From Marasmius tenuissimus (taxonomy: Eukaryota; Basidiomycota; Agaricomycetes; Agaricales; Marasmiaceae), in NCBI GenBank assembly GCA_029532415.1, contig JAQOTA010000047.1, forward strand, positions 1,798,001 through 1,862,000: a stretch of DNA of 64,000 nt, given 5' to 3'. The notes below the pieces were generated by a model. It worked only from the letters and a program-made list of their open reading frames with translations, was not told the origin of the DNA and did no database searches. This document shows, piece after piece, positions 14,235-64,000 of the stretch. The position numbers and the translations under genes were made by a program. Numbering within the stretch: position 1 is the first letter of the stretch; each line of letters begins with the position of its first letter.

Positions 14235-14538
14235 TGCTATTTGTGGCGAAGAGTTCGCCTGGTTTGGTTTTGCATACCTGAGTTCCTCATCGAGGCTTGT
14301 CTCCTACCTCGCTTCACCACATGCTGTTCATGACTCAGGTATGGCTCACGGTCTTAGACGCTCAGTTCAGTGGTGCAGAGTGGGAGGAAGAAGTATATTG
14401 TCATTGTTGTACGTAGTGTCTTATCTGGAAATCATCAATGGGCACTACTTTTGTCTGCGGGCTAGGCTGGGTGGGTAAAGGCTGTCACAGCAGTCATCAG
14501 TACCTCATGTTTTCTCGAGATAATAAAGCTTCAAACCT

Positions 14539-21240: not shown

Positions 21241-21511
21241 CAAAAGCCGCTACCGTCGAGTTGGGTGTAATATTCCACTTGATAACCTCGCATTCTGTTA
21301 TCCCCTCTCCGATATCCGCCAGCTTGAACCTCTGAGTGATCTTCTTCCCTGCCCATGCGCTATTTGTTGCGTGATAATGCGCAATAAAGAGGTATCGTCG
21401 AGTTGAGCGGCCCAAGAGACGTGATGTGAGGTAGTTGGTGATCATCGTCCCCGAGACGATGGTGGAGGAAGGAAGGGAAGGGCGACGCGAGAATGAAAAC
21501 CGGTTCCCCAC
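19874..21511 (-). CDS. Lipoamide acyltransferase (E2) of branched-chain 2-oxoacid dehydrogenase complex
   Basis: A 545-residue mitochondrial enzyme that transfers branched acyl groups from lipoamide to CoA in valine/leucine/isoleucine breakdown and forms the core of the complex. The N terminus (about 1-50) is rich in Arg/Ser without acidic residues, a targeting peptide. The lipoyl domain covers about 60-140 with lysine at 100 in SDKASVEI, and GEGITECEVIKW is typical of the branched-chain subtype. A Pro/Thr/Ala linker follows, then the E1/E3-binding domain (211-248) and the catalytic domain (275-545) with His515 in SADHRVVEGAEL. The usual HRxxxDG motif has Glu in place of Asp (HRVVEG). The frame is free of introns, unusual for this kind of genome, and could reflect a retrocopy. 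It is the only intact of four copies. Start is the first Met; Met23 is an alternative. Confidence 0.93.
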   Translation of the reverse strand: MGNRFSFSRRPSLPSSTIVSGTMITNYLTSRLLGRSTRRYLFIAHYHATNSAWAGKKITQRFKLADIGEGITECEVIKWNITPNSTVAAFDPLCEVQSDKASVEITSPFDGVVKELLVKEGEVAKVGEGLCLIEVDEEAAGSQEAEETRLDATPTPAPAPAPETKPESPPEEPTPTTPRKKHPMDPTYTPTPEASSSSSSAPRIPAEKILAAPSVRHFARSQGVDLSLVAPGSGRDGRVEKMDIEAFLSGATSKSTSTTTTSTSTNVEQDVVVELGRTRYGMWKAMEKSLEIPHFGYSTSLDLTTLDSLLPILNEGIPSHYLPASSSPASMLVNPASVHPPPTPPDVSDEGRYKKLTYLPFLLKTLSMAMMEWPLLRSSITPSSTSSSGKPTLTIRPNTDISIALSTPTGLYTPTLQRVNTHNVYSLASQLRILSHLGRQTPCGLTPKEMPKRGGTISVSNVGAIGDGEYASPVLVPGGGVAIVAIGRAKWVWDVNRRPEGERRLKVGVSWSADHRVVEGAELAAFVEAWRGYVEKPEKLIASGV

Positions 21512-24500
21512 TCCAGATCCGGGGTCATAGCTCCGGGTAAAGCACTCCGAGATCCGAGATCCGGCCGCGAAGACCTAGATTGCACGTGCTCCTGTGGGAA
21601 TTGTTGCCGTTCGAGTCAGGAGTCTCTCACGCTCCCTTTTTCGCTTGTTCCCCCCCAACAACCGTTCGCCTGCAAGCAGGGCACCGACCTCCTCTCTCGA
21701 AATATCTCAAGGCACAGTTCAAATCTTCCAGTTCTATTTTCGTCCTTGGACTCGATTCTGCTACACGACTGGCTGTTGGACCTTTTTTAATTCTCGTCAT
21801 GTTCTTCGGCATCGCCTAACCCACAGACAGTCCGACAACGGCAAGGAGAATGGATCTGTTCAGTTTTTCCTCGACACCGCGCTGCAAAGAGAACACGACC
21901 TTTGCTTCAAAACAAGATCAATCTTTGAGAGGTGCGGCTCGAAACTCAAAGGCTCAGCGACTCATGGTCATTCATATTCATATTCAGTAGCCTACAGGAA
22001 TGTTGCTCGTTAGCTTCCCCAACAACCTCTGACGGTTAGCACTGCTCGTCCCACCCCCAGCAACCCCGTTTTCAACCTGCAAGCGATAACCTTACACTTC
22101 GCCGCTATCGAACACCCTCAGAATCGTTCATCAACACGGCACAGAATGTAACTGCGGTTAGAGAGTAATCGTGGACTTCAGCACACATCATACCCTATTC
22201 TCAGTCATTCGGCGTCGTTCGACCCACACACTGACCGGCGACGGAGTCTTCTTCCCAAATTCGATTTTAACACCCACTTCAAGGAGAACTAGGCTTTGGT
22301 GCCAATACCAGGAAAATTGAGCGGCACGGATCGAAACCTAAGGCTCAGCGACTCTCGTTGCGGTACGAGGCGTGAAACGTCCTGTCCCCCAAAATATCCG
22401 ACGTTTAGTAGTCATCCCACCTACTTTTGCCTCCAACCTGTAAGCGTCACATTAATATAGATCTCAAACAAACCCTTACAAACATGAAACTCTTGGCTCT
22501 CGTACTGCTCTTCTTTCTCGTTCAACGCAAACATCTACCTACTTTACGGCCGAAGCGAGAATTCGCATAGTGACCTCGTCAAGCACTCCTCAATTCTTCA
22601 TTTCCGGCTCTCGCTCGAGATTCGAACTCGAAAGAAGTCCAATCCATTCTTCTTTCTTTCCCTAAGACTCGCCCACTTAACTTCGGCCAGATTCTTGCCG
22701 ACCCGTGGTACCGTTCCTTTTCGCATCTGGCTCAAAATCAGCCATCTCGAGGTACGGCCGACTATATCCTAGTATCCCTCGTTCTCAATCCACCGCTTCC
22801 GCTCGCGGGCTCTGCTCCCGACAAGACAACTGGCCAAAGTATCACCGAGAGCTCCTGTTTTCCCTGGCACTACAAAGGGGGTTTGCTCCAATCGTGCTAC
22901 TCGTCTTCAAGCGATCATGTTAAGGTTTGAGTCGAGATGATCCCCTTCTCAAGCTGCCGTCGATGTGAAATGCCAGCAATGGGCCTGTACTCGTATTTGC
23001 ATCCTCCCTACCTGAGCCGATCTTCTCAGTCCGTGAGCCTGTGGTTGGATGGCGAGGAGACAGAGGCACATGCCTCGTTCGTCGAACACTTTTCCGATTT
23101 TTCCAGCACGCACTACGGACGGCTGTTGAGTGAACCTTCGCGAGTGGCAAGTACGATAATTTGGCCTTGGGGCTTTGTTGAATGTACTTACGGGTCGAGC
23201 AAGAACTCAAACGAGTGGGTAGATAGAAACTATATTCTCTGGTCGTCAAGGTAAGCGTCCGAGGAAGTTGTTTATCAACTCAAGTTTCAAGCCCACCCAT
23301 ACGAGCCTTCGCCCGACTAGTGAGCACAACAATCTGATGTACATGTGAGAAACGCTGGGCAGGAGCTGTCCATCCTGTGGCACGGAGTGTCAGGAAACGG
23401 GCCGTTTGATATCTCCCCTAGCGGTGTACTTACGAACTATTTGATCCTTAAGCCTAAAGGGCTGCCTCAGCGCCCTTCCTATACCATTAAATGAGATCAT
23501 TCCCGCTACTGAAAGATAATGGGTTTTACCAGAAGTGCAAAAAAACCGATTTCGCGGCAGCCCCTTTAGATCACGTAGTTTTTTTCTCATGGTCTCATGA
23601 TATTTTCCCCACATTTCCTCCTATAAAACGGCCTCCGTCCCTTGGCAATGTCGCCCACCTTCTCATCTTGACTTGTACAGCTTTCAACATTGATATTTCC
23701 GTTGCTGACTAGCCACCAGCAGCCTATCGCGACCATTTCCTCTTGGAAGTTCTGGTCCTTACACTTCGGCTGTTTGAACCCCAAAGCTGAAGCTTGACCG
23801 GCGCTTGAGCCTCAGTTTCACCGATCCCAATCGCTCGATCTTACTCAAGATGCAGTCAAGTGACGTTTTGATCACTCAATTCTACCAGATTCTACCACTG
23901 TTGGACACAAGAGGTTACTCTCGCTCACTGAGCGGGGACATCAACCATAGCGTATACGAGGGGCAAGTTAAGATTTCTTTTGCTCTCTCAGAAGATTCAT
24001 CTCACATCCGAATCCTAACATTCACAGGCCCGTGCTTCATGACAAATTACTACAGTTGAGTCTATTGATTCCAGTTCCGACTAGTTTATGTACAATCAGG
24101 ACTAGAAAATTTTCTCTGTTCCGATTCCTGAATGATACGCCGGTGGTTTGTGCTAAGGTTGAGTCCATTGAGCCCTTTGAATCGACTTCATATTCCTTCT
24201 AGACTCAAGGATCTGCACCCAAATATTCTGCCTACATCCAGAACATGCTGCAAAGGATATGTTCAATACAATTTACCTGGTCATCATCACCCTCACGCCG
24301 ACAATGTACACCGTACATGATACGTCCCAAGCAATCGGCAACAACGGGAGTGAGATCACCTGCAATGCTGAGTACGTGGACAGAGCGGTAAGGTACGCCA
24401 GAACTACTGCCGGATGAAGAGATTTCCTCCCCTCTCCTCCTTGTTGGGAGGAGCTGGCCAAAGGCCGAGCAACGACCAGCAGGGAGGCCCGACTTGCACA

Positions 24501-33519: not shown

Positions 33520-36506
33520 AGCCATAGGGTTTATTCTATGAAAGTCTGCAATCGCTTCCTTCGCATTCTTTAAGTTACTCATGGGTTCCCAAGTGTTTTC
33601 TCTACAGGATAACCCTTCCAACTGACATAGTATTCTATCTTTCCTTTATTGTTCAATTGACTATCTACAATCTCTTCAACTTCATATTCTTTTCCACCAT
33701 CTGCTTCAATAGGAGGGGGAGGAGGAGGTTTCTCTTGTGAGGGGAATTCAGGAGGATGGTATGGAGTAAGTAGAGCTTCATTAAAGACTGGACGTATCTT
33801 CCAGGTATTTGGGAGTTCTAGTTTGTATGACGTAGAACCAATCTTTTTCAAGACCTTGAAAGGACCATGACGTTTATTATCTAGTTTCTTGGCCGGACGT
33901 TTACTGGATATATTTGTGGCCTCAACATAGACTTGGTCACCCTCTTCATATTCCCTGGAGTCAGACCGGTTTTGATTGTAGAAGTGTTTCATGGTTTCTG
34001 CTGCATGTTTCAGTGATGATGCAGCTTCTTCTCGGATCTGATCCATGGTCTTACTAAAGTGCTCTGCTTGTGGACTCCTAGTCCCATTCCTCCTTGGTTC
34101 CATTCCTTTCCAAGGTGGTTGTCCGTAATTCATGAAGAACAGCGATTGACCAGTACTTGAATGAACCTTATCATTGTATGAAAACTGGGCAATAGCTAAC
34201 CAGTTAAAGTCATCTTGTCTGAAATTGACAAAGATTTGTAGGTACTTTTCAATTTCTTGGTTCACTCGTTCTGTCTGACCATCTGTCTGAGGGTGGTATG
34301 CCGTTGACTTGTTTGAGTCAATTCCAAGTATGTGAAATAAGCTCTCCATGAATTTCAAATCAAACTGAGGCCCTCGGTCTGAGATGACCTTCCGGGGTAA
34401 TCCATGTTCCTTGAACACATGTTCAATGTAAAGCCATGCTGTTCCTTCCAAAGTGATCTGTTGGTTTGTGGGAATGAAGATTGCCTTCTTGGTCAAACAA
34501 TCTACAACAACCATGATCATATCTTGGCCCTGAGATAATGGGAGTGGGCCTATGAAGTCAATCGTTACTATTTCCCATGCTTTCTCTGGAATTTCATTTG
34601 GCTGGAGCAGTGCCGCGAGCTTCTCTCTTCTTGGTTTAGCCTTTTGACATCTGTCACATCCATTGATGTAGTGTTTGACATCAAAGTTGATCTTAGGCCA
34701 CCAATAGTTTCAGGTAATCAGCTCTAGCGTCTTAAACTGTCCTGGATGTCCAGCTAGGGAGGTATCATGATGAAGATGAATAATATCTTCCCTAAGCTTT
34801 TCATTTTTAGGAACATAGACCCTGTCCTTCCATGTGACAACATTGTCATTCTCTTCCCAGCCTTTTTCCTTCTTAGTCAATGATTCAATCACAGACTGAT
34901 CTCGATCTTTGTTTTCTTTGATCCGAGTCATTATGCTTTTGTCTAGTGATGCTATGACAATGAGGCGAAAAAGTTCTGGTTTGAGTAAAACAACGTTTTT
35001 GTTGTCATTTACCCCCCTCTCATGACCTGCTCGTCTCGACAGGTAGTCCGCTTTAGCATTTTGCTGTCCAGGTTTATGGTGCAGGGTAAAGTGGTAGTCC
35101 TGCATCATAGTTACCCATCTGGCCTGTCGTCGGTTGAAATCCTGTGGTTTCCTGAAGTATTCAAGGTTCTTATGATCTGTCCAGATCTCAAAATCTTCCA
35201 TAGTACCCAACAGGTATTGTCTCCATTCACGAAGGGCTATCACAATGGCAAGCATTTCCTTGTTGTAGATCTCGTAATTTCTCTCTGCTTTGTTCAGTGA
35301 GTGAGAAAGGAATGCAATTGATTTCCATTTGCCATCTTGGTACTGTGATAGTATAGCCCCTACTGCAAAGTCTGATGAATCTGCTTCAATGCGGAATTTC
35401 CCATCATCTCTGGGTATGGCTAGCACAGGGGCCGTTGTGACTCTTATCTTCAGGTCATTAAAGGCCTCTTCTTGTGCATTTGTCCATTCTCAGCTCTGTT
35501 TCCCAGTTAGCTTGTGCAAAGCATGTGCCACATGTGAGAAATCTCAGATGAAACGTCGGTAAAAGTTGATGAATCTGAGGAACTGTTGTACATCCCTCTT
35601 GTCTTTTGGTGTGGGCCATTCACTGACAGCTTTCACCTTGACTGGATCCATTCTGACTTGTCCCTTTCCAATGATCAAACCAAGGAATTCGATTTCGAGT
35701 TGTTCAAATTGGCATTTCTCTGGTTTCAAGTACAACTTGTGTGCACGAAGCTTATCTAGGATTCAGCGAACCATCTCCCTGTGTTCCTCCAACGTCTTCG
35801 TGAAGACAAGGATATCGTCCATGTATACAATGACTTTCCCTGTGTTGATTTCTTCACGGAGAATGGTATTCATCATTGTCTGGAACATTGCAGGTGAATT
35901 GGTCAGACCAAAAAACATGACGAGCAGTTCAAACATCCCTCTGTTTGTGAGGAATGCTGCCTTCCATTCATCTCCCTCCTTGATCCTGATATTATTGAAA
36001 CCCCATCAAACGTCCATCTTTGAAAACCAAACGGGCCAATGAGTTCCTGTGTCAACAGCAGAGGATAGCGATTTTTGATTGTCTGCTCGTTGAGTTTTCT
36101 GTAGTCTTGTACAGGTCTCAGTTTCCCATCCTTCTTTTTGACAAAGAAGAAGGGTGACGCCATTGGTGACTTAGATGGTCAAATTTGACCGGTTCTCAAG
36201 TTCTCCTCTAGGAATACATCAAGCTCTTGTTGTTCTGCCAGGCTGAGAGGGTATATCTTAGCAGAGTTCTGACCTTTTGCTCCTGGGATCAATTTGATGG
36301 CATGGTCCCAGGGGCGTCTTGGTGGTAATTGGTCAAAATCCTTCTTATCAAAGATGTCCCTGAAGTCCTGGTATGCTTCTGGAACAATCTCTTCAAAGGT
36401 CTGCTCTTCCTTTCCCTTCTTGGCTTCATGTGCCAGTTTGGTGGACACATTTTCTCAAGCTCGTATGTGTAATTCCTGTTGGATGTCTACTACAAGTATT
36501 CAATCT
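33520..36506 (-). pseudogene. Gypsy Pol: RT - RNase H - integrase - chromodomain (broken)
   Basis: RT begins after FDQLPPRRPWDHAIKLIPGA with [20 protein letters not shown] and LKPEKCQFEQLEIEFLG. RNase H reads FRIEADSSDFAVGAILSQY..YNKEMLAI. Integrase has the HHx..Cxx C-type entry (INGCDRCQKAKPRREK), the D,D,E core (DFIGPLPLSQGQD; SDRGPQFDLKFM; HPQTDGQTERVNQEIEKYL) and the C-terminal GDQVYVEATN. The chromodomain (YEVEEIVDSQLNNKGKIEYY..YPVEKT) is cut by a frameshift near 33600. Stops are all TGA (36179, 35763, 35544, 35490, 34710). Confidence 0.9.
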
Positions 36507-36874: not shown

Positions 36875-39800
36875 TCAAGTGGACGAATAGAATTCAAGTC
36901 CAAGGTGATCTCTGAATCGTAAGAACTTCTCGTGTCCGAGATTTTTCGTAAACATATCTGCGGGGTTATAGAGTCCTTCAATAAAGAACAACTCGACTTT
37001 GCCATCTTCAACACATGATCGAATATAGTGATATCGAATATCGATGTGCTTGGTTCGGTGTTCTTGAACCAGATTAGATGCAATGAAGATAGAGCCTTGA
37101 TTATCTCCGCAGATTGGAATAGGACCTAAGTCGATTCCAAGTTCAGAGAGTAGCGATCTTATCCAGGAAGCTTGACGACTGCAATCCGACAGTGCCATAT
37201 ACTCAGCTTCAGTGGAAGAAAGAGCTACAGTCTTCTGGGCGTGTGATTGCCACGGGAAGATGCCGCCTGCTAACTTGAAGAAGTAGCCAGTTATCGAACG
37301 GCGTTTGATGGGATCGGCAGCCCAATCCGAGTCTGTGAACGCAAGAAGACCTCCATCAGAGTCACCATCATAGACAAGTGAATAATCTGATGTGCCAGCA
37401 AGATAGCGGCAGATGTAGAGTGCTTTATCAAGGTGTTCCTTCGTTGGATTAGAAGAGAACTGGGAAAGCTTCGTAACTGCATAGGCAATATCAGGATGTG
37501 TGCCCAGCATAATGTACAGAAGCGACCCAATCACAGACTGGAATCTGGAGCGGATGGCAGGATTAACTGGACCATCGTTGGGAATTGGCACATAGCCAGC
37601 TGGTAAGGGCGTAGGAGCACCTTTCGCATTCTGCATCCCAAAACGTTCAAGGACCTTCTTCAGATAATCCTTTTGGTCAATCATAATCTTATTGCCTTCG
37701 CGACGAATGCTCATGCGGAGAAACTCGCTAGCATCGCCCATATCGCGGCATTCCCATCGAGCCATGAATTCAGCTTTCTTCTTGTCAACAAAAGCTTTGT
37801 TAGGACCCATGAAGAGTGCATCATCAACGTATATGATCGCATACACAACTTCACCACTCTTCGGATCTTTGCAGATGAAGAGTCCAGCATCAGAAGTCAG
37901 ACGTTTGAAGCCTAATACTTCCATGGACGAGCTGAGAGTTCGCCACCACTCAAGGGCAGCTTGCTTCAGTCCATATAATGCACGACGCAGGCGTAGTACC
38001 TTACGTTCTTGGCCCTTGACTTTGAAGCCTTCAGGTTGTTCCATGTAAATCTCCTCAACAAGATCGCCATAAAGGAAGGCGTTTTTAACATCAACAGAGG
38101 TGATGTACCAGTTCTTGAGAGCTGCGAGAGCAAGCATCATACGAACAGTCTCATAACGAACAACTGGTGAGAAGATCTCATCAAAGTCGACACCTTCGAC
38201 CTGAGAGAAACCTTTGGCAACAAGCCTCGCTTTCTTGCGACCATTCGACTTGACGTCGAAGACCCATCTATTTCTGATGGCTTTGCGACCTTTAGGCAAG
38301 TCACAGAGTTCGAAGACCTTGCGCTTACGAAGTGCCTCAAGTTCTTCGTGGCAAGCAGTCTTCCATTCCTTCTGTTGCTCAACAGGCAACTTTAGAATAT
38401 CACGGAGTGTCCACTCTCTGATGTTAGAGAAATCAGGAGTATCGGACGTTGGAAGCGAATCGTGAACTGGAACGGCATTGTTCAACAGGTAAATCACGAA
38501 TCCTACTCCCCCTTCTTGGGTCAGTCTTTCGACTACGCTTTCTTCCTCATGCGACTCAGTGCTTCCACTGGGTTCTGGAGCAGGCGGAGGCGGAAGTGGA
38601 CCAGGAATCCCCTTTTTACCACCTTTGCCTTTCCTAGATTGCGAAGAGCTAGGACGATCAACTGGATGTGAAGGTTCTTTATCTCCAGTGACGTTTCTCC
38701 AAGTATTCTTATTTTCTAAGTCGCGAATAATATCTGAGGGTCTATTTGGGTTCCGCTGTTCACCAAATATGTTACCAGGTTGCGTTGTACCCTTCCGCTG
38801 CCTCGAAGACCGGCGTGGACCATCCGCTGCTGGTGCAGGCGGAGGAACGGCGGGTTCGCCTGGAGGCGTCGGAGGACCAGATTCAGGGAGTGGCAAATCC
38901 CCTGGCGCAGGGCCACCTGCAGGTTCGTCAACCTGAGGTTCTGATCTCTTAGAAGGTTCGGAGCGACGTCTGAGATCTGGGAACGGAGTATCGTCCCAAT
39001 TGTCATCAGAGTCTTCATCTTCCAAAGGAATGTTGGGATTTTCACCCAAAGTAAATGGTTCACTACCGACAGGTGTGAAGCCACGAGTTTTGGCATCAGG
39101 ACACTTATTGTATAGCGTTTCATCGAATAGTGCAGTGCTACCTTTGAATACGGAATTATTACTTCGCATGAACAGGAAGCCTTTCATCCCATCTTGGTAG
39201 CCGATGAAAGCCATCAACTCACTGCGAGGAGCGAGCTTATTCTTCCTACGATCTTCAGGAATGAAGACGTAGGCTGCACAACCCATAACTCGGAGATGTG
39301 AAACATCAGGTGCTTCGCCGTAAAGCATTTCGAACAGAGTTCGCCAGCTCAAACGTTGCACAGGAGTGCGATTGTAGAGGTGGACGGCGTGCACATGGCA
39401 GAATTCCCACCAGGACTGAGGCATACAAGCTTCAAAGCGAAGAGCTTCAGCCTTTTCATGAATAGTCCTGTTAAATCGTTCAGCACGACCGTTTTGTTGT
39501 GGTGTATACAGTATGCTTTGATCCCTCTGGATCCCATACTCTTTCAGTACTGCATCGAACTTATCTCCTTTGTACTCTCCCCCTTCATCGGACATCCAGG
39601 TTTTGACGACAGCATTGAATTGCGTCTTGACCATAGTAAGGAAGTCCCTCAAAGCAGGTACTGCCTCGTCTTCCGTCTTGAGCTTGGAGGTCCAAACGTA
39701 GGACGTGCAGTCATCGAGAAAAGAGATGTAGTATTTGTACCGGTGATATGATTCAGCCGGGTACGACTTTAAATCCGAATGTATGCGTTCAAACGGTTTA

Positions 39801-42280
39801 GAAGCTCTCGTTGTAGAGTTGGGGAACGATTTCTCATGCATCTTGCCTTCAGCACAACCACGACACAGAGGTGTCTTCTTAGTAGGCATCTTAAGGTCAA
39901 GTGGGAAACCTTGCGTATGTTTCCGAGCTTTATTCAGGGCTTTATCCGACGGATGCCCAAAGCGTCTGTGCTCAATGTCGTAGTCGACGTTGTAAACGAC
40001 CGACTTGGCCATTAAAACCTCAGCAGATGCTTTCCGCGAGTGTACCCAATAAATGGTTTGACCAGGCATATGAGGGTAGGAAACAAGTGACTGTCGTCGC
40101 TGTGATGAGTAGAAGGCTAACTTCTTCGCGTTTCCACGAATTGATAGACCATCTTGAAGGAACTCTCCCATTGATAGTAGACGTATGTCCAATTGAGGTA
40201 TGTAATAGACAGGATAGAGACGTGAAACACGCTCAGTAAGTTTCCCGTTATGTCCTTCAACATTATGCTTAATGAAGACTGTGCCTTTACCCTTGATCTG
40301 TATAGGGTTGCCCTTATTCGCAGTATTTACGATAGGACCATCAAGCGATTCATATTCAGCGAAATCATTCAAATCATTCGTGAAATGAGAGGAGGCACCA
40401 GAATCAAGGAGCCAACCCTGTGCGTTGTTCACACTTTTCTTTCCCTTACATTGTGTACACCCCACGAAGTGGGAACTGATTGCATGACAATAATATACAA
40501 GTGATTCCAGATCACTACGACTACCCCGCGAACTACTGATACCAACTAATTGTGAGCATCGCTGTAGGGTCGTATCAGTTTGGGAAAGCAGGTCAAGGTA
40601 TGGTACTTGCCTGTCATCGTGGAAAGATCCAAGAGAGACGTCATCCGGGACGTCCTCAACCCCTGCAGCTTCGGCAATATCGTTGTCAACATCATTACCG
40701 AATAGAGAGGTCATGTCTTCCATACCGTCGTTAGATCCCCAGTCCATCTCTACATCTTCATCAGGATCAGCGCTACGAGAGCGTTTAGAAGAAGTAGAAG
40801 AAGGAGATCCGGCTCCCTCATATCCCTCATCATCCTCCAAAAGACGCTTGGACGAGGACGCACGTGGTTGTTCAATGCGATCCTGGAGCGAACGATTGGT
40901 GGCGGACGTGACGATCTGTTCGAAGGGTTTGAGATACCGCGCCGTCTTAGGAGCACCAAGTCTGTCAGCAAGGGAACGTGCTCCACGGACATCATCAAAT
41001 ACTGACTGAGATGGCTTGAAGCCAGTGAAGGACTGCATAGCAGCCGGGTTCTTCTTGACAACTGGCTGAGGAACAGTGCTGTCACAAGACTTGTCCCAGT
41101 GACCAGTGAAGTGAGCTGGGGGCGGTGATCCCATAGCGCGAACAGGAGGGGCGCTGGCGATCTCGGCACGCAAGGAGTTGTTGACCGCGTTCAACGCGAT
41201 ACGTTCCCTGCGGTCGGTAATCGAGGAATAAGGACGGACCAGAGCGGGGGAAGCTACGACGGATGCATATGATGCCAGATGAGAGTGACCATGCGACCGA
41301 TTGTTACCGTTGTTACCGCCGGCGTTGCCGGGACCCTGATGCTGGTTGATGCCACCGCGGGTTCCACGCTGCTGCTGCTTCTTCTTCTTACCGTTGTTCT
41401 GGTTCGAAGAGGGGCGTTGCTGCTGCTGCTGTGGTTGACGCTGTTGGCCACGCTGCTGCTGTCCGCGCTGCTGACGTTGCTGCTGTGGACGCTGCTGCTG
41501 ACCAAAAGATGGCTCACGGTTACCAGCACACTTGACCGCAGAGAGGCGGTTAGCAAGCTGAGGGTTCTGGCGCTCGTATTCGACCATGATAGCTTCATGA
41601 ACGTCGGCGACGGTGAGGGCGCTGGAGCTCTCAGGATCCCTATCAAAGTCATGAAGGGACTTGGAGGAAGCGGCGTCCCATTTGGGAGGAATTGCTGCGA
41701 TGAGAAGGAGGGCTTTGATCAACTCGGGGAGTTCAACCCCGACCTCGGCAAGACGTTCAATGTAATGCTTGAACTTGGCGATGCCAGCCTGGGGATGGCT
41801 GGTGGTAAGCCGGAAGGACACCAACTTGACGAAGTCACCATAAATGGCAGACAAGGTTGGTTCGCCATAGGTGGTGACAATGGTGGACCAGGCTTTGGCA
41901 GTGTCCATGTCCTTGAGAGGTTCAAAGACTTCCTTCGTAGAGGTCAACTGAATGATACCCATCAGCTGGAGATCTTTCTCCTCCCATGCTTCCAGCGCAG
42001 TATTGTACGCCGTGATCTGAGCATCGGTGGGAGGGTGACGATCAGGTTCGTCGTCACTGTCAGTTCCAGCTGCAGGCGGAGCAGTTCCACCAGGGGGAGT
42101 AGTGACCGTAATGGTCGGAACAATAGGTTCCCCCAGCGGGTACGTAGGCTTCTTAGCCGCACCAGTAAGGTGACGATAAAGGCCTTGAGCCTTAGTTACA
42201 GCTTCCATTTCGCCGTTATAAGTCTGGCGGAAACCAGTGCCATTGAAGCGACCGGAGAAGAATTTCTTAACGTCGAACAT
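36875..42280 (-). CDS. Copia 2 Gag-Pol polyprotein
   Basis: A single 1801-residue frame without stops. Gag is in about residues 1-330 with a Gln-rich stretch (QQRPQQQRQQRGQQQ) and no obvious zinc knuckle. The protease is near 627 (WLLDSGASSHF), the GAG-pre-integrase near 780 (RFGHPSDKALNKARKHTQGF) and the integrase D,D,E core at about 810-920 (RIHSDLKSY, WMSDEGGEYKG, TPQQNGRAERFNRTI). A Pro-rich linker follows, then the RT at about 1335-1560 ([43 protein letters not shown]) and RNase H near 1650-1800 (AFTDSDWAADP, ALSSTEAEYMALSD, HRTKHIDIRYHYIR). It is translated as one product, so Gag excess must come from protein processing or another mechanism not visible here. Confidence 0.96.
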   Translation of the reverse strand: MFDVKKFFSGRFNGTGFRQTYNGEMEAVTKAQGLYRHLTGAAKKPTYPLGEPIVPTITVTTPPGGTAPPAAGTDSDDEPDRHPPTDAQITAYNTALEAWEEKDLQLMGIIQLTSTKEVFEPLKDMDTAKAWSTIVTTYGEPTLSAIYGDFVKLVSFRLTTSHPQAGIAKFKHYIERLAEVGVELPELIKALLLIAAIPPKWDAASSKSLHDFDRDPESSSALTVADVHEAIMVEYERQNPQLANRLSAVKCAGNREPSFGQQQRPQQQRQQRGQQQRGQQRQPQQQQQRPSSNQNNGKKKKQQQRGTRGGINQHQGPGNAGGNNGNNRSHGHSHLASYASVVASPALVRPYSSITDRRERIALNAVNNSLRAEIASAPPVRAMGSPPPAHFTGHWDKSCDSTVPQPVVKKNPAAMQSFTGFKPSQSVFDDVRGARSLADRLGAPKTARYLKPFEQIVTSATNRSLQDRIEQPRASSSKRLLEDDEGYEGAGSPSSTSSKRSRSADPDEDVEMDWGSNDGMEDMTSLFGNDVDNDIAEAAGVEDVPDDVSLGSFHDDRQVPYLDLLSQTDTTLQRCSQLVGISSSRGSRSDLESLVYYCHAISSHFVGCTQCKGKKSVNNAQGWLLDSGASSHFTNDLNDFAEYESLDGPIVNTANKGNPIQIKGKGTVFIKHNVEGHNGKLTERVSRLYPVYYIPQLDIRLLSMGEFLQDGLSIRGNAKKLAFYSSQRRQSLVSYPHMPGQTIYWVHSRKASAEVLMAKSVVYNVDYDIEHRRFGHPSDKALNKARKHTQGFPLDLKMPTKKTPLCRGCAEGKMHEKSFPNSTTRASKPFERIHSDLKSYPAESYHRYKYYISFLDDCTSYVWTSKLKTEDEAVPALRDFLTMVKTQFNAVVKTWMSDEGGEYKGDKFDAVLKEYGIQRDQSILYTPQQNGRAERFNRTIHEKAEALRFEACMPQSWWEFCHVHAVHLYNRTPVQRLSWRTLFEMLYGEAPDVSHLRVMGCAAYVFIPEDRRKNKLAPRSELMAFIGYQDGMKGFLFMRSNNSVFKGSTALFDETLYNKCPDAKTRGFTPVGSEPFTLGENPNIPLEDEDSDDNWDDTPFPDLRRRSEPSKRSEPQVDEPAGGPAPGDLPLPESGPPTPPGEPAVPPPAPAADGPRRSSRQRKGTTQPGNIFGEQRNPNRPSDIIRDLENKNTWRNVTGDKEPSHPVDRPSSSQSRKGKGGKKGIPGPLPPPPAPEPSGSTESHEEESVVERLTQEGGVGFVIYLLNNAVPVHDSLPTSDTPDFSNIREWTLRDILKLPVEQQKEWKTACHEELEALRKRKVFELCDLPKGRKAIRNRWVFDVKSNGRKKARLVAKGFSQVEGVDFDEIFSPVVRYETVRMMLALAALKNWYITSVDVKNAFLYGDLVEEIYMEQPEGFKVKGQERKVLRLRRALYGLKQAALEWWRTLSSSMEVLGFKRLTSDAGLFICKDPKSGEVVYAIIYVDDALFMGPNKAFVDKKKAEFMARWECRDMGDASEFLRMSIRREGNKIMIDQKDYLKKVLERFGMQNAKGAPTPLPAGYVPIPNDGPVNPAIRSRFQSVIGSLLYIMLGTHPDIAYAVTKLSQFSSNPTKEHLDKALYICRYLAGTSDYSLVYDGDSDGGLLAFTDSDWAADPIKRRSITGYFFKLAGGIFPWQSHAQKTVALSSTEAEYMALSDCSRQASWIRSLLSELGIDLGPIPICGDNQGSIFIASNLVQEHRTKHIDIRYHYIRSCVEDGKVELFFIEGLYNPADMFTKNLGHEKFLRFRDHLGLEFYSST

Positions 42281-42565
42281 GATAGTAAGAGGTTAGGTAG
42301 TTTGGTGTTGGATCTAGAAAAGACAGCATCAGCATGCGTCTAATCAACACAGGGAGCAGCCATCAAGGCGCTATGCTCAACGAGGAGCATTGGATCCTTG
42401 AGATCCGATGTCGTCGAAGGACGTACATCAATGCCATAGATCGAGCACTCAATTAAGAGGTCGATGGCAACATGCAGGTCTAGCCTAGCTAGCCGATGAC
42501 AGCAGCCTAGGGGCGCTCGTCGCTGACAGCAGCCATTAAGGCGCTCGTCATTGTAGTCGGGCTAA

Positions 42566-56819: not shown

Positions 56820-57308
56820 GTCTTGGGGTACCTGGTACGCCTGGTAGCCCGGAGGCGGATGAACGCTGGCTGATTTGACCGGCATCGAGCTGGAGATGTC
56901 AAGAAAGGATGATGATGATCTCGAGGCTCTTCCAGATTGCCTTCTACATCCCAGCGCATATATGATCGAGTTGGATTTTGGGAAGACGCCATCTTTGCAC
57001 TCATAGTGGTGCTTGTGGTGGAAGTGGGCTTGGGGGTAGCAACAGAGATAAAAAAACTATATGTCTTTCTTTTCGACGCACTCATTACGGCCTGGGCAAG
57101 AAGCAACGAGCAATAAGCCAATGCCTTTTGGCCCAGCGATGACGAGCTGCAAAACGCACCGCAAATGCCAGATTTCTCCGTAGGTATGCGTGGCGATTCA
57201 TGAGGGAGAATTTGAGAACGTCTCAGGCGTCGAGTACACATCGAATTGAGTAGATGTTTTCTTCTCGGTGTCATTGGCGTGTTTTTGGTCATCCAACTAT
57301 ATCTCCTC
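56820..57308 (-). pseudogene. E2, copy 3, middle part (pseudogene)
   Basis: Matches the linker, subunit-binding region and beginning of the catalytic domain of the intact E2 (for example TPMTPRRKHL against TPTTPRKKHP, and the stretch around GATCTCGAGGCTCTTC). Frame is lost repeatedly. The hAT element is inserted at ATCTCCTC (57301-57308); the 5' part lies beyond it at 62787. The C-terminal catalytic half is absent. Confidence 0.8.
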
Positions 57309-57341
57309 TAGCGTTGCGTCAGTTTGGTCTGGGGGAGGATA

Positions 57342-57404
57342 CTTACCCGTAACTTACCGGGAGGGTCTGGGGAGGCCTGGTAAGTTACTTGTAAGTTACC
57401 GGTA
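57342..57404. repeat. Subterminal GTAACTTACC repeats, left end
   Basis: ACTTACCCGTAACTTACC and GGTAAGTTACTTGTAAGTT lie close together in both orientations within about 95 bases of the terminus, matching the cluster at the other end (62671-62740). Such arrays are usual transposase-binding sites in hAT elements; that role is inferred. Confidence 0.75.
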
Positions 57405-57544
57405 ACTTTGGCCGGTCCGGAACTCCGGGTAGGCCAGAAATATTCTTCGCGCTATGCGCGTTCAGTAAACACTCAAGCTACAGCTTCCTTGGTCTGCAGA
57501 TAGGTTCAGCACAAGGCTATAAGTATGATAGATCAATTGTACGT

Positions 57545-60500
57545 CTACATCAAACTAATACTAAAATTTTGATTTGTGTCACCCAAATCTGTCTCGTTCG
57601 ACATCTTTGAGACTTTTGCAACCGCCTTCGAGACTGCGGTATTGGCTACCCTACTCTTGCTGAGCAAACCCTGAAGATATGGACTGTCAAGGTTCACTAC
57701 GGTCTTCACTACCTGAAGCAGTCGGTGCCAGCTCCCAGGTGACTCCAAGTCTGCCTCCTCGTCTTCATCCGCCCGCTCATCAATCCACCTGTCATCCTCT
57801 TCTTCCTCAAGAGGTTTGGCGTCTTCACTGCCCGCAGTTAAGGCCGATTCCCTCTCTGCTTTCACGATCTGATGGTACTTGAGAATCGGTTGCGGATTTG
57901 ATTTGCGAGTCTGGGATGGAAGGTGAGCGCTGAGTGAGCAAGTTTTTACATGTTGGAGAGAACCAAACATACCACAATGTCGTTAGCCTTGTAATACTGA
58001 CGGACTGTTGTCATATCTGACATTGTTGCGATACTCATTCTGTTACGAACTGGGGGTGTAATCCATGTGAAGTTGGAGACAGTCCTTTCTTCTGCCATAG
58101 AGTTCGGTCGTAGAGCATAGATCTTGAGAGCAACAGCCTATCGTGACGTTCAAGGAGGAAATTATTAGCATGCGACATGAGACTGAATACGCTATCCAAA
58201 ATCGAAACTTACCGGCAGAATTTCCTCTGGTTCAGCTGCCTGAACCCGGCTCCACCACTCCTGAGGCGATGTAGAGTTGATATCGAAAATACCATCGTAG
58301 GGGAAACGGCGGCGGGCATAAGCAACACACTCGTGCTTCAAGCGAGTAGAGAACTGAGTTCCATACTCCCTATACTGAGTAAAGAGCAGGTTGTCGCCGT
58401 TTTTGACCTCCGGGAGTGCAACATAGTCGTGAAGGTAGTTCAAAACTCTGACGAAAACGCCGACTGAGTGAATACCACGATAATCCTCCTTAGAGTTGTC
58501 ACGATCCTCGCAGAAAATTCCAGACTCTCGATCCATGTACCCTGATGGGGTGATCATCAACAATTCAAAGTAGATTATGTTACCAGCGAGCACTCACCAG
58601 GGTTCAGGTACGCCGCTGCGAGGAACACTGGGCTTCCGAGAGCGGGATTTAGTCCAAAAAGCTGGTTGTATCGGTAGGCAACCTTATCCATAATCTCCGT
58701 TTTGACATCTGTCGGCATCTCCGAGATTCTTTCACCTTCCAACGCTTTAGAAATTGTGTAAATGAGAGCGTGCCAGTAGACAAAGACATCAGCACAGGTG
58801 GCTTGTGTGGCTTCAAGGCAGCGAATCACGATAACAATTGGATGGCCGACTGAAACGAACTGGCGGTGTCGTACATCATACTGGGCAGTCGCTAACATCG
58901 AGCCGCCCATAAATTCTGCGAAATCCTGAAGAAGGGATGTCAGAGATGTGGTTAACAGGGAACCTGTATTGCTTATGCACGTACTGTGCAATCTGTAGCT
59001 CCATTTTTGACTATGGCTTGTATAGCTGCATTGCACCTCTGAACAGAGATTGCAGCATGTACAACCCCACCAAAACGTGTCTTCCCTATCCCTTCGAGCC
59101 CCCGGCCGATTCCGCGATTCTGACGCTCTGCAGCAAGCTCAGCGATTCCAGAATGTGACTTATGAAAGCGCTGGATGATTATCCTATCCACCGCAATGGG
59201 CTGGAATATTGATCAGTGATAGTGCCAAAGAAACGCTACAGCCAAGAGTCCTTACCTCCTTGAAGTGCTCTACGCGGACCAAGTCCTTGACAAGTAGATT
59301 GAGGTGATGAACTGTATCCGGCATTTCGATTATTGTGGGTATTTCTCGTACAAGAAGGCGGCGGAAAGCACGGGTGTTCCCTGTGCTATCACAGACAACA
59401 CCTGCAAAGTGATTGCGGCCAATGTCATCAATGACCTGTAGTAATGTCAGAAATCAGAATGATCGATAACAGAAGAAAAACTCTACTCACCGGGAGACAT
59501 ACTGAGTTCAAGATCCAATCTGCGTCGTGTGAGACGGCCGTTGCTTCAAGAGTCAACATTTTATAAACATCTCCATTGCCAGTTGCTACGTGAGCGTTCC
59601 AAAACGAGTCTCGCCCGCGACTGGTGCCTCCATCGCACGAGAAGGTAAGGTTTTGGCGAGTCTTCAGGTAGGTGAGCTGGTGTTGATGACAGAGCGTAGA
59701 CTCGGATTGGATGCTGTGGGTAAGAAGGTCCTTTCCTTGAGGATTGTAGGTGGGATCTGCAATCTGCCAGGCTCTCGTCCACTCAGGCCGTGATGCGAGG
59801 AAAGGTGGAAGGCCAGCGATGCAGTACAGCTGTGTGATGGCAAGATCTAGTCTAGCATGTCTGATCTGACGTCCTGTTTTAGTGACAACAGAAGCGACGG
59901 ACGGTTGATTGGGATCCTCGACAAAAACCCTTCCATCCTCAATCTTCAACCTCTTTGCAGGAGGCTCTTTACTTCCATCGTCACCAGCAGCCACTTTCCC
60001 GGAGTCCACCAGCTCTTTGTTACCCTCCATGTTGGCCACAACCCTCGACGGCGCAAGTGCAATCTGTGCTTGTATCGCTTCCTTTTTCACTTCCGGAAGT
60101 ATACCTCGACACTCCGAGACCGCATGAGCCAACCAACGATGTTTGTTAAGATTTACCAACGTGCCAGAGCAACCTGGAGCTTTACACCAATAGAACCATT
60201 CGCCTTCGGGTTTCGACTTGTCATAGGCTCGACCCGTGATCTTCTTCAGAACTGGATTAGGTGCACGACCACCATTCGCCGCGATACGCTGAATAGGATC
60301 TCTAACCCAGGTGCTGGTATTGACTTTCCCAACAACGACCGCTTGTGTTCCTTCTCCTTCGTCTACGACCTCCGCCTCCGTATTCTCGCTCTTTGTATCT
60401 GACTTCGGCTGTATAGGTTGGGAGAGGAAGGCTTCCTCAATTGGTCGTTTCAGGCCAGGAGACGGTTTACCATTATTCTTCTTTTTGTGCGCCTTCGGTT

Positions 60501-62064
60501 TCAGTGCAGCAGAAGTCGATGGTTGCTTGTTTTGATTGCCCGGGGTACGCTTTAGCAACGACACATCTGGCGCTTTGCCTTTCGAAGCTCCACCATGCAA
60601 GTCAAGGCTTGTCCCGTCAAGAACCGAAACCATTGCCGTCGAAGAGGCATTGGCTCGCTGATGGATATCAGGATCAAGGAGATTGAATTCGGATGAATCC
60701 TAACAGCAAATAGACGAATGTATGTGAGTGATTCCCTTTTTTCTTTCTGAGCAACGATTGCTTACCGAGGATTTCCCTTTTTCAATGTCTCTCAAGACCG
60801 CAAGAAGTGTCCAAATCCGTCCTTCCAAACACTTCGAAGCATCAAGTGCAGGGAAACGAGCAGGGTAGAAGGATGTCATGAGACAATTGGCTGCTAAAAT
60901 CCCACAAGATACGTCGTCCCTCTGCGTGCTGCACCCGAGGCGTGTATCCAGAAGCACACTTCCCCTTCCATGCTGTTCGAGCCACCACTCGATAGCCTCC
61001 CTCAATTCCTCTGGCAACTCATTTTCTTCTGACCACGAATCCCCAAACCCTAGCATCATCGTCGGCATATCCACTTTCACTGTCACCCAGTGATTTGCAT
61101 CCGATGCTCGCGCTGGAATCATGACACCCTTTCCAGTGAGCTGGACCCCCGCATTGAACGCCAACGTCTTTACTTCTCCCGTTCCCAAAAGGTTCCCAAG
61201 TCGGTGCAACCACTGGTGCTGGTTGGGCTGCTGCAGGTATGTCGTGCGACTCGTTCGGTATGCGGATATCAATTTACATGCGAAAAAGGGACCAACAACC
61301 CGACGCGGCGAGACACCAGTGAAGGATGCCGAGTCCAATAACCGTTGGAGCATCCATGCTACCAAGTTGAGCTGCTCGTCGCCGATCCAACGGTTACTGC
61401 AGAAAACTGCAAGGTGCTGCGTGAAGGACCCCATTCTATTCGGCATCTCCAGCCCCCAGGGCATCTCCTTCAACACTGCCAATATGTCTTCATCGTTCTC
61501 TTTCAGCCATGCCTCAGCCGCTTCCCAGTTTCGTTTTGCATTTCTAACCTCCTCCAGTTCATACCAATATGTGAACGACCACATCGGGATCGTGTCCGTA
61601 CCAACCCTGACTGCAACACAACCATCCTGCTGAGCCTTTGCGGCACGCTCAAAAAGCTGTTCGAGCTGCGTAAAAGGTGGCGAGCACACATCTGTCAGTA
61701 TGCCCTTGAGCCCATCTTGTTCGTCCTCGCTAACAGAGAGATCGTTGGTGAAGGTGATGGCACTGACATCGAAGTTCTGGTCAGTGATTGCTGGTGGCAG
61801 AGCGAATTTTTTGAGAGACGTGAGGGAGTCGAGACGGGAAGGAAGAAGGAGCGGCCCAAGAACGAGAGGAATCGGGAACGTGGCTTGGAGACGGTCTGAA
61901 AATGGCTCGGGAAGCTCATCAATATCGAGAATTGGGGGAGGATCTTCGAGGAAACTCATGGCGAGATCCACGAGTAGGAGAAGCGGAAGTAGAAGAAGCA
62001 GAGGCGACGCAGTAGGAGATGGCAAGGAAAAAATTTCAAATGGATGTGATTGTTGGTGGGCCAA
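57545..62064 (-). CDS. Ulp1-like (C48) protease fused to BED finger and hAT transposase
   Basis: Exons, 5' to 3': 62064-60766, 60699-59491, 59435-59256, 59200-58985, 58925-58598, 58541-58213, 58137-57973, 57910-57545. All seven introns (55-75 bases) have GT..AG ends and the joined length is 4092 bases, 1363 residues plus stop. N-terminal Ulp1-like domain: WIGDEQLNLVAWML (226-239), His325 (ANHWV), Asp342 (GFGDSW), Gln381 and Cys387 (TQRDDVSCG), a complete C48 set. A Lys/Pro-rich linker follows, then a BED-like finger (C605, C610, H620, H625), the hAT core (FSCDGGTSRGRDSFWNAHV; VVCDSTGNTRAFRRLL; HHLNLLVKDL), the dimerisation region (SPQEWWSRV; LRPNSMAEERTVSNFTW) and an acidic tail. The first splice joins protease and transposase in frame (GKSS/DSSEFNL). 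Met36 (61959) is an alternative start. Confidence 0.9.
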
Positions 62065-62670
62065 TGATTATGCCCAGCATTATAAGCGTTGCTTCTCATG
62101 TGCACTCGGAATTGGTGAAGGACAAAGTAAGTGATGCATTTCTAGTATAATGTGTATGGTATCCCTCTACTATATTTGGTAGGGATAGTGGTTGTGATAG
62201 GTGAGGTTAAGATTTGTAGTCCATTGGTACCGACTAGAAGTCGTGGTGGTGCAATAACGATAATTGCAGGCCATAGATATCCAAAAGAACATTAGTTAGG
62301 TAGAGGAAATGATTGATATATCACGCACTTTGCTGCTGCATGAAAGACAACAGATGCCGCCTGATACTCTTCAGTTCCTGTAGAATTCCTAGCCGACGGT
62401 CTCCAATCCGCGAGTTCAAAAGTGTTCGCAGATTTTTGCGGGGAGCTGGAATCTAGAATGCCAAAGGACTGAGATAAGAGACAGTGATATACTGCGGCAC
62501 AGGAAAATATGGCTCACCTTCTTTCAAATTGACAGCCAGGAGCAGGAGGGAGCAGGAAAGACGACGGAGCAAGGAATATGGGGTCAGGCTGTGCGATGTT
62601 CGTCCAGGCGGCTGGTGCGGGGCTGACTAAGGGGCCTTCCCTATATGGAGGCGCCGGACCGGTGGCTCCG

Positions 62671-62740
62671 GGGTAACTTACCAGAAGCCTCTCAGACCCT
62701 CCTGGTAACTTACCAGTAACTTACGGGTAACTTACCAGGT
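62671..62740. repeat. Subterminal GTAACTTACC repeats, right end
   Basis: Four to five copies of GTAACTTACC-type motifs (GGTAACTTACCAGAAG, GGTAACTTACCAGTAACTTA, GGGTAACTTACCAGGTAAG) next to the right terminus, the mirror of the left cluster. Confidence 0.8.
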
Positions 62741-62786
62741 AAGTTTGAAAAATGGTAACTTTGGCAGGGTTTGTGACGCAACGCTA

Positions 62787-63034
62787 ATCTCCTCCCATCT
62801 CTGCGCCTCAGCAACCTCTCAAGCCATCTCAATCAAACACGCCCCCCCTCCAACCCTTCACAACCCCAACAGACGGTGATCAATCTCTCTATTCAACTTC
62901 TCTGTCCGTGGATATTGCGTGGTAGCGGGCAATATAGGGATTGCCCCGGGGTAAGCAGCCCAAGGGACGTGATGTCAGGCAATTGACGAGCCTCGTCTTC
63001 ATACAATGATGGAAAAAGAGAAGGACGCGAAAAT
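62787..63034 (-). pseudogene. E2, copy 3, 5' part (pseudogene)
   Basis: Resembles the lipoyl domain and presequence of the intact E2 at the nucleotide level: CAATCAAACACGC against CAATCAAGCATAA, AGCCCAAGGGACGTGATGTCAGGCAATTG against AGCGGCCCAAGAGACGTGATG. Frame destroyed by deletions including the lipoyl-lysine region. Homology ends at GACGCGAAAA, where unrelated sequence begins. Confidence 0.75.
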
Positions 63035-63071
63035 TAGTGCGCCCGCGATTAGGTCAGAGTTATTAGCAGTG

Positions 63072-63162
63072 CTAATTAGCAAGCGCTAATTAGCAGCTAA
63101 TTAGCGACACCCTCGGGACCCCCCAAAAATTCGATGCTAATTAGATAGTAGCTGCTAATTAG
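63072..63162. repeat. Cluster of CTAATTAG palindromes
   Basis: Five copies of CTAATTAG at 63072, 63086, 63097, 63137 and 63155, mostly as GCTAATTAGC. The cluster begins just after E2 homology stops and precedes the gene at 63363. It could be subterminal repeats of a further element or binding sites; neither can be shown here. Confidence 0.8.
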
Positions 63163-63362
63163 GTTCTATAGTGAATTTATCGGCGTAGAGACTACTTTCG
63201 ATGCATTTTCTGGCTCAACACGTCCAGACATTGGTCGCAATAGCTCATGACGTAGTGGTAGAAGTGGCAGTGCCCACGCGCCTAAAATTTTGTCGCGTCC
63301 AAAGGGTGTGCTCGTGATCCCAGACGCGTCCACCGATCACTGATCGAGTCAAAACCCTCCAA

Positions 63363-64000
63363 ATGGATACTCAAGAGGTCAGTGACCTACACAAGCTCAG
63401 GATTCTTATGAAGAATCTCCCGGAAGCTCTCCCACTCCATTCACAAGACGACACCTATCACCCTGCCCTCTTTAACTGGTCTATTGACGATGGATGGGCG
63501 CAGGATGTCGGGAAAGATGGTGCCATCAACCGAGCATTAGAGGCAGCAATTGGTCCGAGGAAAAGCGGCGGCATATTTCCCATCCTAGAGAGAGGGCCTG
63601 CGATGGAAAATCTAGCCAAGATACTTGATACATACAGCAAGGAGCTTCCCGACTCGTTCTTGATCAATAATTGGATCCAAAATGCGATTGCATCTGCTGA
63701 GAGTGTCTTGAAAGAGCATAGGACCGCAGTGCGTACTATTCTCATACTTATGCTGAGTTTCATGACTCAAATTGCCAGCAGCTGCCAGATTTCACCCAGT
63801 CCGAGAGCGAGAATGCACAGGCAGCAGTTAGTCTCCGAGCTAGTGTACCTCCGCAGGATGCGGACCCAGGGAATGCACGTTCTTCAAATGGTCCTAAAGA
63901 GACTACTGCCGTTATCCAGGCTCGAAAGAAGGGGAAAAGCAAGCCGACGAAACGGGACACCAAGGCCATGACCGAAGCAGATATTGCGGACGATAGGTAC
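63363..64000 (+). CDS. Unrecognised gene, 5' part (cut by window end)
   Basis: Starts MDTQEVSDLHKLRILMKNLP and runs 122 codons to EHRTA at 63728. A 51-base intron follows (63729-63779, GTGCGT..TTGCCAG), and the frame continues with QLPDFTQSESENAQAAVSL and a Lys-rich stretch (ARKKGKSKPTKRDTKAM) to the window end. The first exon is helical with a Gly/Pro-poor profile and contains ALFNWSIDDGWAQDVGKDG. I do not recognise a domain. Clean splicing and codon structure suggest a real gene; the surrounding context (E2 homology ending abruptly, palindrome cluster) suggests it belongs to another mobile element. Confidence 0.55.

Follow-up and report, generated by a model that had tools for sequence, protein, structure and literature searches.

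A 64,000-nucleotide stretch of the Marasmius tenuissimus genome (the window, C23:1798001-1862000) contains at positions 57309-62786 a structurally intact cut-and-paste transposon of the hAT type. On balance this element probably encodes a single protein in which a Ulp1-like cysteine protease of the C48 family, a zinc-finger-like linker, and a transposase follow one another, and in which the protease would work while tethered to the transposase. The contig labels C2-C69 and locus labels L024-L040 used below are names for parts of the 71-Mb genome, which comprises 70 contigs.

The element is bounded by exact, inverted 13-bp terminal inverted repeats (TIRs), TAGCGTTGCGTCA on the plus strand at 57309-57321 and the same sequence on the minus strand at 62774-62786. 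The TIRs are flanked by an 8-bp target-site duplication (TSD), ATCTCCTC, that is identical at all eight positions on the left (57301-57308) and the right (62787-62794), exactly as an earlier note on this DNA had read them. The TIR count in the window is little proof by itself: two sites with at most two mismatches were found versus an expectation of 0.67, and two or more appeared in 16 of 100 shuffles. Genome-wide, there are four occurrences of the exact 13-mer, arranged in two inverted pairs that each have a separate 8-bp TSD, and one occurrence of a reversed-pattern control. The second pair encloses a 686-bp copy on C12 (TSD TCCAGCAG). Chance TIRs were rejected because the repeats are exact and inverted, the same 8 bp stand on both sides, and the 13-mer forms pairs with their own TSDs in a family of copies.

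A genome search with each element end returned eight places per end. Five further short copies have both ends (C64, C3, C30, C28, and C2); C39 has the left end only and C7 the right end only. The six short, non-autonomous copies (C12 and the five others; L035-L040) have TSDs that are identical in five cases and match at seven of eight positions in the C3 copy, which brings the identical TSDs to six of seven when the window element is counted. The TIR variant TAG[CT]GTTGCGTAAG occurs in five short copies, and the exact window TIR is confined to the C12 copy. This is the outcome of a check that the earlier note had proposed, a search for TIR-bounded copies with other 8-bp duplications. The transposon family has moved, because there are six such copies and five of them have identical TSDs. 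The element also contains nine GTAACTT repeats, four in its left subterminal region (57349-57408) and five in the right (62673-62761). None of the nine is more than 114 bp from an end of the element, and the remaining 58,522 bp of the window contain four. These repeats are probably transposase-binding sites and are treated here as candidates.

A predicted protease-transposase fusion

The gene lies on the minus strand and consists of eight exons separated by GT-AG introns of 55-75 nt that join into a frame without a stop. Translation from the first in-frame ATG, at 61959 (the open frame has no earlier one), gives a product of 1328 amino acids. The earlier note had counted 1363 codons; its eight stop-free exons hold, and its total includes 35 extra codons upstream of this ATG. 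Exon 1 (60766-61959) encodes the protease (residues 1-398), and residues 399-1328 form the hAT-like transposase. The two are separated by a predicted 66-nt phase-0 intron (60700-60765). Exon 2 (59491-60699) encodes the linker, a CCHH zinc-finger-like motif (C570, C575, H585, and H590; 60124-60186) and the start of the transposase core with D754 (59632-59634). The CCHH motif was read by eye and had no zinc-finger match in the domain search. Exon 3 (59256-59435) contains D817 (59388-59390), D841xxH844 (59307-59318), and part of a DUF659 match, and is followed by exons 4 (58985-59200), 5 (58598-58925), and 6 (58213-58541). Exon 7 (57973-58137) encodes an hATC-like region with E1169 (codon 58087-58089), and exon 8 (57545-57910) the C-terminal tail. 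Splicing of the 60700-60765 intron is predicted and would create one protease-transposase polypeptide. The boundary is in phase, as the earlier note had it, and the single polypeptide remains a prediction of the gene model. An in-frame stop stands close to the end of this intron, whose retention would give a 419-amino acid protease-only product. An unrelated gene caught between the TIRs is not favored; the two parts share a strand, the intron is frame-compatible, and a leading module recurs in related elements.

Sequence comparisons place residues 1-398 as a divergent C48-like cysteine protease that has kept its catalytic residues. This assignment is made because two homologues pass the Pfam cut-off and a joint profile matches yeast Ulp1, and not from a direct Pfam match. 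Relatives of the protease in this genome were found on C69 (E 3e-19), C29 (3e-10), C10 (2e-7), and C11 (1e-4). The scores against C69, C10, and C11 were 87.8, 60.5, and 44.7 bits, and among 200 shuffles the highest score against any of the three was 26.9. C10 (24.4 bits) and C11 (28.0 bits) exceed the Pfam C48 cut-off of 20.7 bits; C69 and C29 fall below it. The joint protease profile identified yeast Ulp1 as its best PDB match (E 4e-4, improving to 2.3e-5 after a C7 piece was added); the next matches were mostly SENP1 and structures of bacterial deubiquitinases/deneddylases. Proteases, deubiquitinases, or SENP1 account by name for 20 of the 21 chains listed with the first profile and 21 of the 24 with the second. 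The substrate may be the small ubiquitin-like modifier (SUMO), ubiquitin, or another ubiquitin-like tag, as the profile also matches deubiquitinases and deneddylases. In viral contigs scanned with each of two alignments, no relatives outside this genome were confirmed.

The aligned active-site residues are H290 (61090-61092), D307 (61039-61041), Q346 (60922-60924), and C352 (60904-60906), all on the minus strand. The earlier note named the same four residues, and its numbering (His325, Asp342, Gln381, and Cys387) is replaced by the present one. The His, Asp, and Cys are invariant in five of five related proteases and in six of six in a second alignment with one added member, at identities of 23-33%. 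The window protease has the spacing of aligned yeast Ulp1, with 17 residues from H290 to D307 and six from Q346 to C352. A serine stands where yeast Ulp1 has an aspartate before the catalytic cysteine, and this serine is common to all six aligned proteases.

The element is assigned with good confidence to an hAT-like group because of its 8-bp duplications together with its relatives, conserved residues, and profile matches. DUF659, the sole Pfam match on the product, was detected at residues 743-864 with 34.5 bits versus a cut-off of 34.7 on the whole product, and with 36.2 bits, above the cut-off, on residues 641-1204; it was also found in three of three aligned hATs at E ≤ 1 (best E 5.9e-9). 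D754, D817, D841, H844, and E1169 are invariant in all three (the window element and pieces of a C55 hAT and of the neighboring C23 hAT). A profile of the three hATs weakly matched PDB transposases in four of five cases, two of them named Hermes (E 0.023-0.03), and the fifth match was a gas vesicle protein (E 0.1). E1169 aligns with the Glu of Hermes ASERT (around SSAASERT; E 0.023, a weak match). We take D754, D817, DxxH, and E1169 to be the catalytic positions by comparison with those known in Hermes, of which the E region alone is aligned here. An NCBIfam search gave a single match, far below its cut-off.

N-terminal modules and related proteases

A second, complete-looking hAT begins 248 bp from the end of the first element (L026:1036-5266, window 63035-64000 and on to about 67265). 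It has perfect 21-bp TIRs (TAGTGCGCCCGCGATTAGGTC) and the TSD GCGAAAAT. No protease was found in it: tblastn with the window protein gave no match ahead of residue 453. A 122-amino acid module (L026:1364-1729) stands ahead of its transposase, with a predicted 50-nt phase-0 intron between them, and the C55 hAT carries a homologous module (25% identity, E 2e-8). The window protease appears to occupy the place of this different N-terminal module in two related hATs, and so looks like a swapped N-terminal exon. Among at least 26 C48 matches and at least 30 hAT dimerization-domain matches, both lower bounds and neither list including the window element, no C48 domain lies within 10 kb of an hAT dimerization domain; the nearest pair is 287 kb apart.

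The C10 relative of the protease lies within a complete element (L030:755-7468, C10:6600254-6606967) that has 27-bp TIRs (26 positions matching) starting AGGACCCC and the 8-bp TSD GGAAAAGT. Its C48 protease is on the 5′ side and is followed by a transposase-like open reading frame (ORF) of 645 amino acids. A predicted phase-0 intron follows the protease exon, and beyond it the frame runs on into a linker, giving 748 amino acids without a stop; no open splice from there to the 645-amino acid ORF was found when one or two introns were tried. No hAT similarity was seen in this ORF family in the searches made, and Pfam and PDB gave no meaningful match to the ORF, which may have a P-element-like look. 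Relatives of the ORF are found on C7, C4, C19, C30, and C12. Those on C7 and C4 have a C48 domain upstream on the same strand, and on C4 a single 529-codon ORF covers the C-terminal part of the protease together with what follows it. In the stretches fetched around the C19 and C30 relatives, tblastn found no protease.

The many KDZ transposases of this genome, like its compact introns, fit a fungus and probably a basidiomycete. C48 domains also accompany these KDZ transposases. They lie 1.0-2.6 kb downstream and on the same strand at 13 of 23 C48 loci (for example C62:124297-127485), a count that used 22 of 167 KDZ matches. None of these KDZ-linked loci was matched by the window protease at E 1e-3. 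Membership of the window element in the KDZ group was rejected, since its product has no KDZ match and none is listed at C23:1855309-1860786 among the matches listed.

Two decayed loci were also observed. On C29 (L029:4450-7482) a related protease lies upstream of a linker and an ORF on the same strand; the ORF looks pogo-like by eye, and Pfam gave no DDE_1 there. No claim is made for this locus as a protease transposon, given a stop in the protease frame and an empty TIR search. The close transposase relative L024 (about C39:841800-843900) shows 314 differences in 1535 sites, with 156 C>T plus G>A changes versus 83 in the reverse direction. This bias suggests decay by a process resembling repeat-induced point mutation or by deamination.

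Proposed role of the protease and competing explanations

SUMO is linked to transposon silencing and to DNA repair. In the scheme we favor, the protease would have entered the element as an N-terminal exon that replaced a different N-terminal module. The transposase would bind the subterminal GTAACTT repeats and carry a deconjugating protease to the element and to insertion sites, where it could remove SUMO or a different ubiquitin-like tag from proteins that act in silencing or repair, or from the transposase itself. Removal of the tag would lead to more transposition, and intron retention could supply free protease as well. That SUMO removal would favor transposition is supported by analogy with Sleeping Beauty, where, in the passages cited, SUMO1 co-transfection mitigated HMGXB4-enhanced transposition and PIAS1 was without obvious effect (PMC10138897). 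A wider proposal is that a transposon-borne Ulp1-like lineage passes from one DNA transposon superfamily of this genome to another in the form of a phase-0 N-terminal exon. In the hAT it would act as a tethered deconjugase and relieve SUMO-dependent silencing or repair control locally, at the element. We put this forward as a tentative possibility.

Several results weigh against the single tethered protein. The fusing splice is a prediction, and both the deconjugating activity and the SUMO specificity of the protease are putative. Pfam returned no C48 match on the whole product at E ≤ 1, a PDB search with the window protease alone had no match, and an AlphaFold model from the single protease sequence was unusable (mean predicted local distance difference test score of 36). 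The His-Asp and Gln-Cys spacings in C10 and C11 are 17 and 7, the latter differing from the six of the window protease, and the C69 open frame stops just past the aligned Cys and has no Gln, making its Cys doubtful. For the transposase, Pfam found no Dimer_Tnp_hAT at E ≤ 1 on the whole product or on residues 641-1204, and a PDB search with its sequence alone had no match; its nearest relative, on C39 (L024), is a relic with no match ahead of residue 893. A genome search with the protein found one full-length copy of the element. The C48 and Dimer_Tnp_hAT profile checks suggested in the earlier note had a mixed outcome: neither gave a direct match, and C48-passing homologues, the Ulp1 profile match, the aligned catalytic residues, the hAT residues, and DUF659 stand on the positive side, with a weak alignment of the C-terminal region to Hermes.

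The strongest competitor, though itself unlikely, is that the gene makes two products, a free 419-amino acid protease from the intron-retaining transcript and a transposase from an internal start or a separate transcript, with the fusion minor or absent. The in-frame stop in the 66-nt intron would end translation soon past the protease, a Met is present at residue 421 in exon 2 (60631-60633), and the KDZ-linked C48 domains lie downstream of their transposases with no evident fusion. This explanation has to contend with splice donor and acceptor sites that by eye resemble those of the other six predicted introns, and with leading modules that are normal in two other hATs, one of them joined via a predicted phase-0 intron. 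The C10 protease likewise joins its linker in frame across a phase-0 intron, and the C4 protease shares an ORF with the sequence after it. Passenger capture (transduplication), in which the protease exon was acquired by chance and plays no part in transposition, is fairly improbable. Capture of ULP sequences by Mutator-like elements (MULEs) in plants is frequent and independent in the passages cited (PMC2528002). The single full-length copy and the lack of C48-hAT pairs within 10 kb among the matches listed also agree with a chance event. Frame, splice sites, and active-site residues are nevertheless intact across 398 codons, and a second transposon family also has related proteases on its upstream side. 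The exon junction, moreover, falls 46 residues past C352, near what we take to be the end of a Ulp1 domain.

If the protease domain had lost catalysis or were purely structural, and counted solely as an N-terminal domain comparable to the unrelated module in the neighboring hATs, this would account for the lack of a C48 match to the window protein and for the serine that replaces the Ulp1 aspartate. Because H290, D307, and C352 are invariant at identities as low as 23-33% and the serine is common to all six proteases, we regard this as quite unlikely. Least probable is polyprotein processing, in which the protease would cut itself off the transposase. The product has one LxGG site (LHGG, residues 432-435), 34 residues past the junction. 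With five GG sites in the product, about 0.4 would be expected to have L at -2 from the first G (an estimate), and inspection by eye shows no GG in the short linker exon that follows the C10 protease; the next exon has one. The single tethered protein remains our preferred reading. Ulp1-like domains occur in unrelated transposons without a settled job in the passages cited (PMC2836005, PMC2528002), and an apparent fusion, a protease-free hAT end 248 bp away, and short copies in one genome form a clean test set for the role of the protease.

Surroundings and comparison with known systems

The region of the window is, by eye, rich in transposons. A long open copia-like polyprotein (36875-42292), a gypsy-like fragment (33579-35489), and a LINE-like (long interspersed nuclear element) ORF (10656-14303) were named by eye from their translations. 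The ORF at 19874-21574 resembles by eye the E2 subunit of 2-oxo acid dehydrogenase and is probably a host gene.

The association of Ulp1 with transposases is already known from Ginger1, CACTA-ULP, MULEs, and Cryptons; an hAT with Ulp1 appears new within the literature covered. No hAT fused to Ulp1 was found among the matches listed in the open-access literature, with Repbase outside the scope, in agreement with the earlier note, which knew of no description of this exact fusion. Its statement that Ulp1-type proteases in transposons are usually separate genes proved too narrow, since Ginger1 (PMC2836005) and rice Tnp2-ULP1 (PMC2528002) are each one protein in the passages cited. The window element resembles the hAT superfamily (Ac/Tam3/Hermes and fungal hATs) in its 8-bp TSD, short TIRs, DDE residues with DxxH, DUF659, and weakly Hermes-aligned hATC-like end, and differs in its 398-amino acid N-terminal exon with a Ulp1-like protease.

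Ginger1 transposases have Ulp1 (pfam02902) at the C terminus of the same protein, and their authors put forward activation of repair factors as a possible function of the Ulp1 and OTU domains (PMC2836005, passages cited). Ginger1 thus joins Ulp1 and transposase in one protein, as predicted for the window element, but its Ulp1 is C-terminal and its transposase is Gypsy-integrase-like, whereas the window protease is N-terminal and the transposase hAT-like. Rice CACTA-ULP combines Tnp2 and ULP1 in one protein, and in grapevine MULEs the ULP is downstream in either orientation (PMC2528002). CACTA-ULP and the ULP-bearing MULEs, including KI-MULE, resemble the window element as cut-and-paste elements in which a transposase is accompanied by a Ulp1-like region, but they are plant elements of other transposase superfamilies. 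CryptonF and CryptonS carry a C48 peptidase, and domain shuffling between groups was suggested (PMC3212892, passages cited). They share with the window element a C48 domain in a eukaryotic transposon, but encode tyrosine recombinases, and the CryptonS peptidase is an additional protein, unlike the predicted fusion.

Puccinia hAT7 elements carry a TET/JBP gene that lies upstream of the transposase in the same orientation in three families, and the terms protease, SUMO, and peptidase are absent from the main text (PMC12730594). They resemble the window element as fungal hATs with an accessory enzyme gene and differ in that the gene encodes a dioxygenase and the TSD is 7 bp. Within the M. tenuissimus genome, the KDZ elements have a same-strand C48 domain next to the transposase, but downstream of it. 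The C10-type element has in common with the window element a homologous 5′ protease, a predicted phase-0 intron, and an 8-bp TSD, and is distinguished from it by 27-bp TIRs and an ORF that lacks hAT similarity in the searches made.

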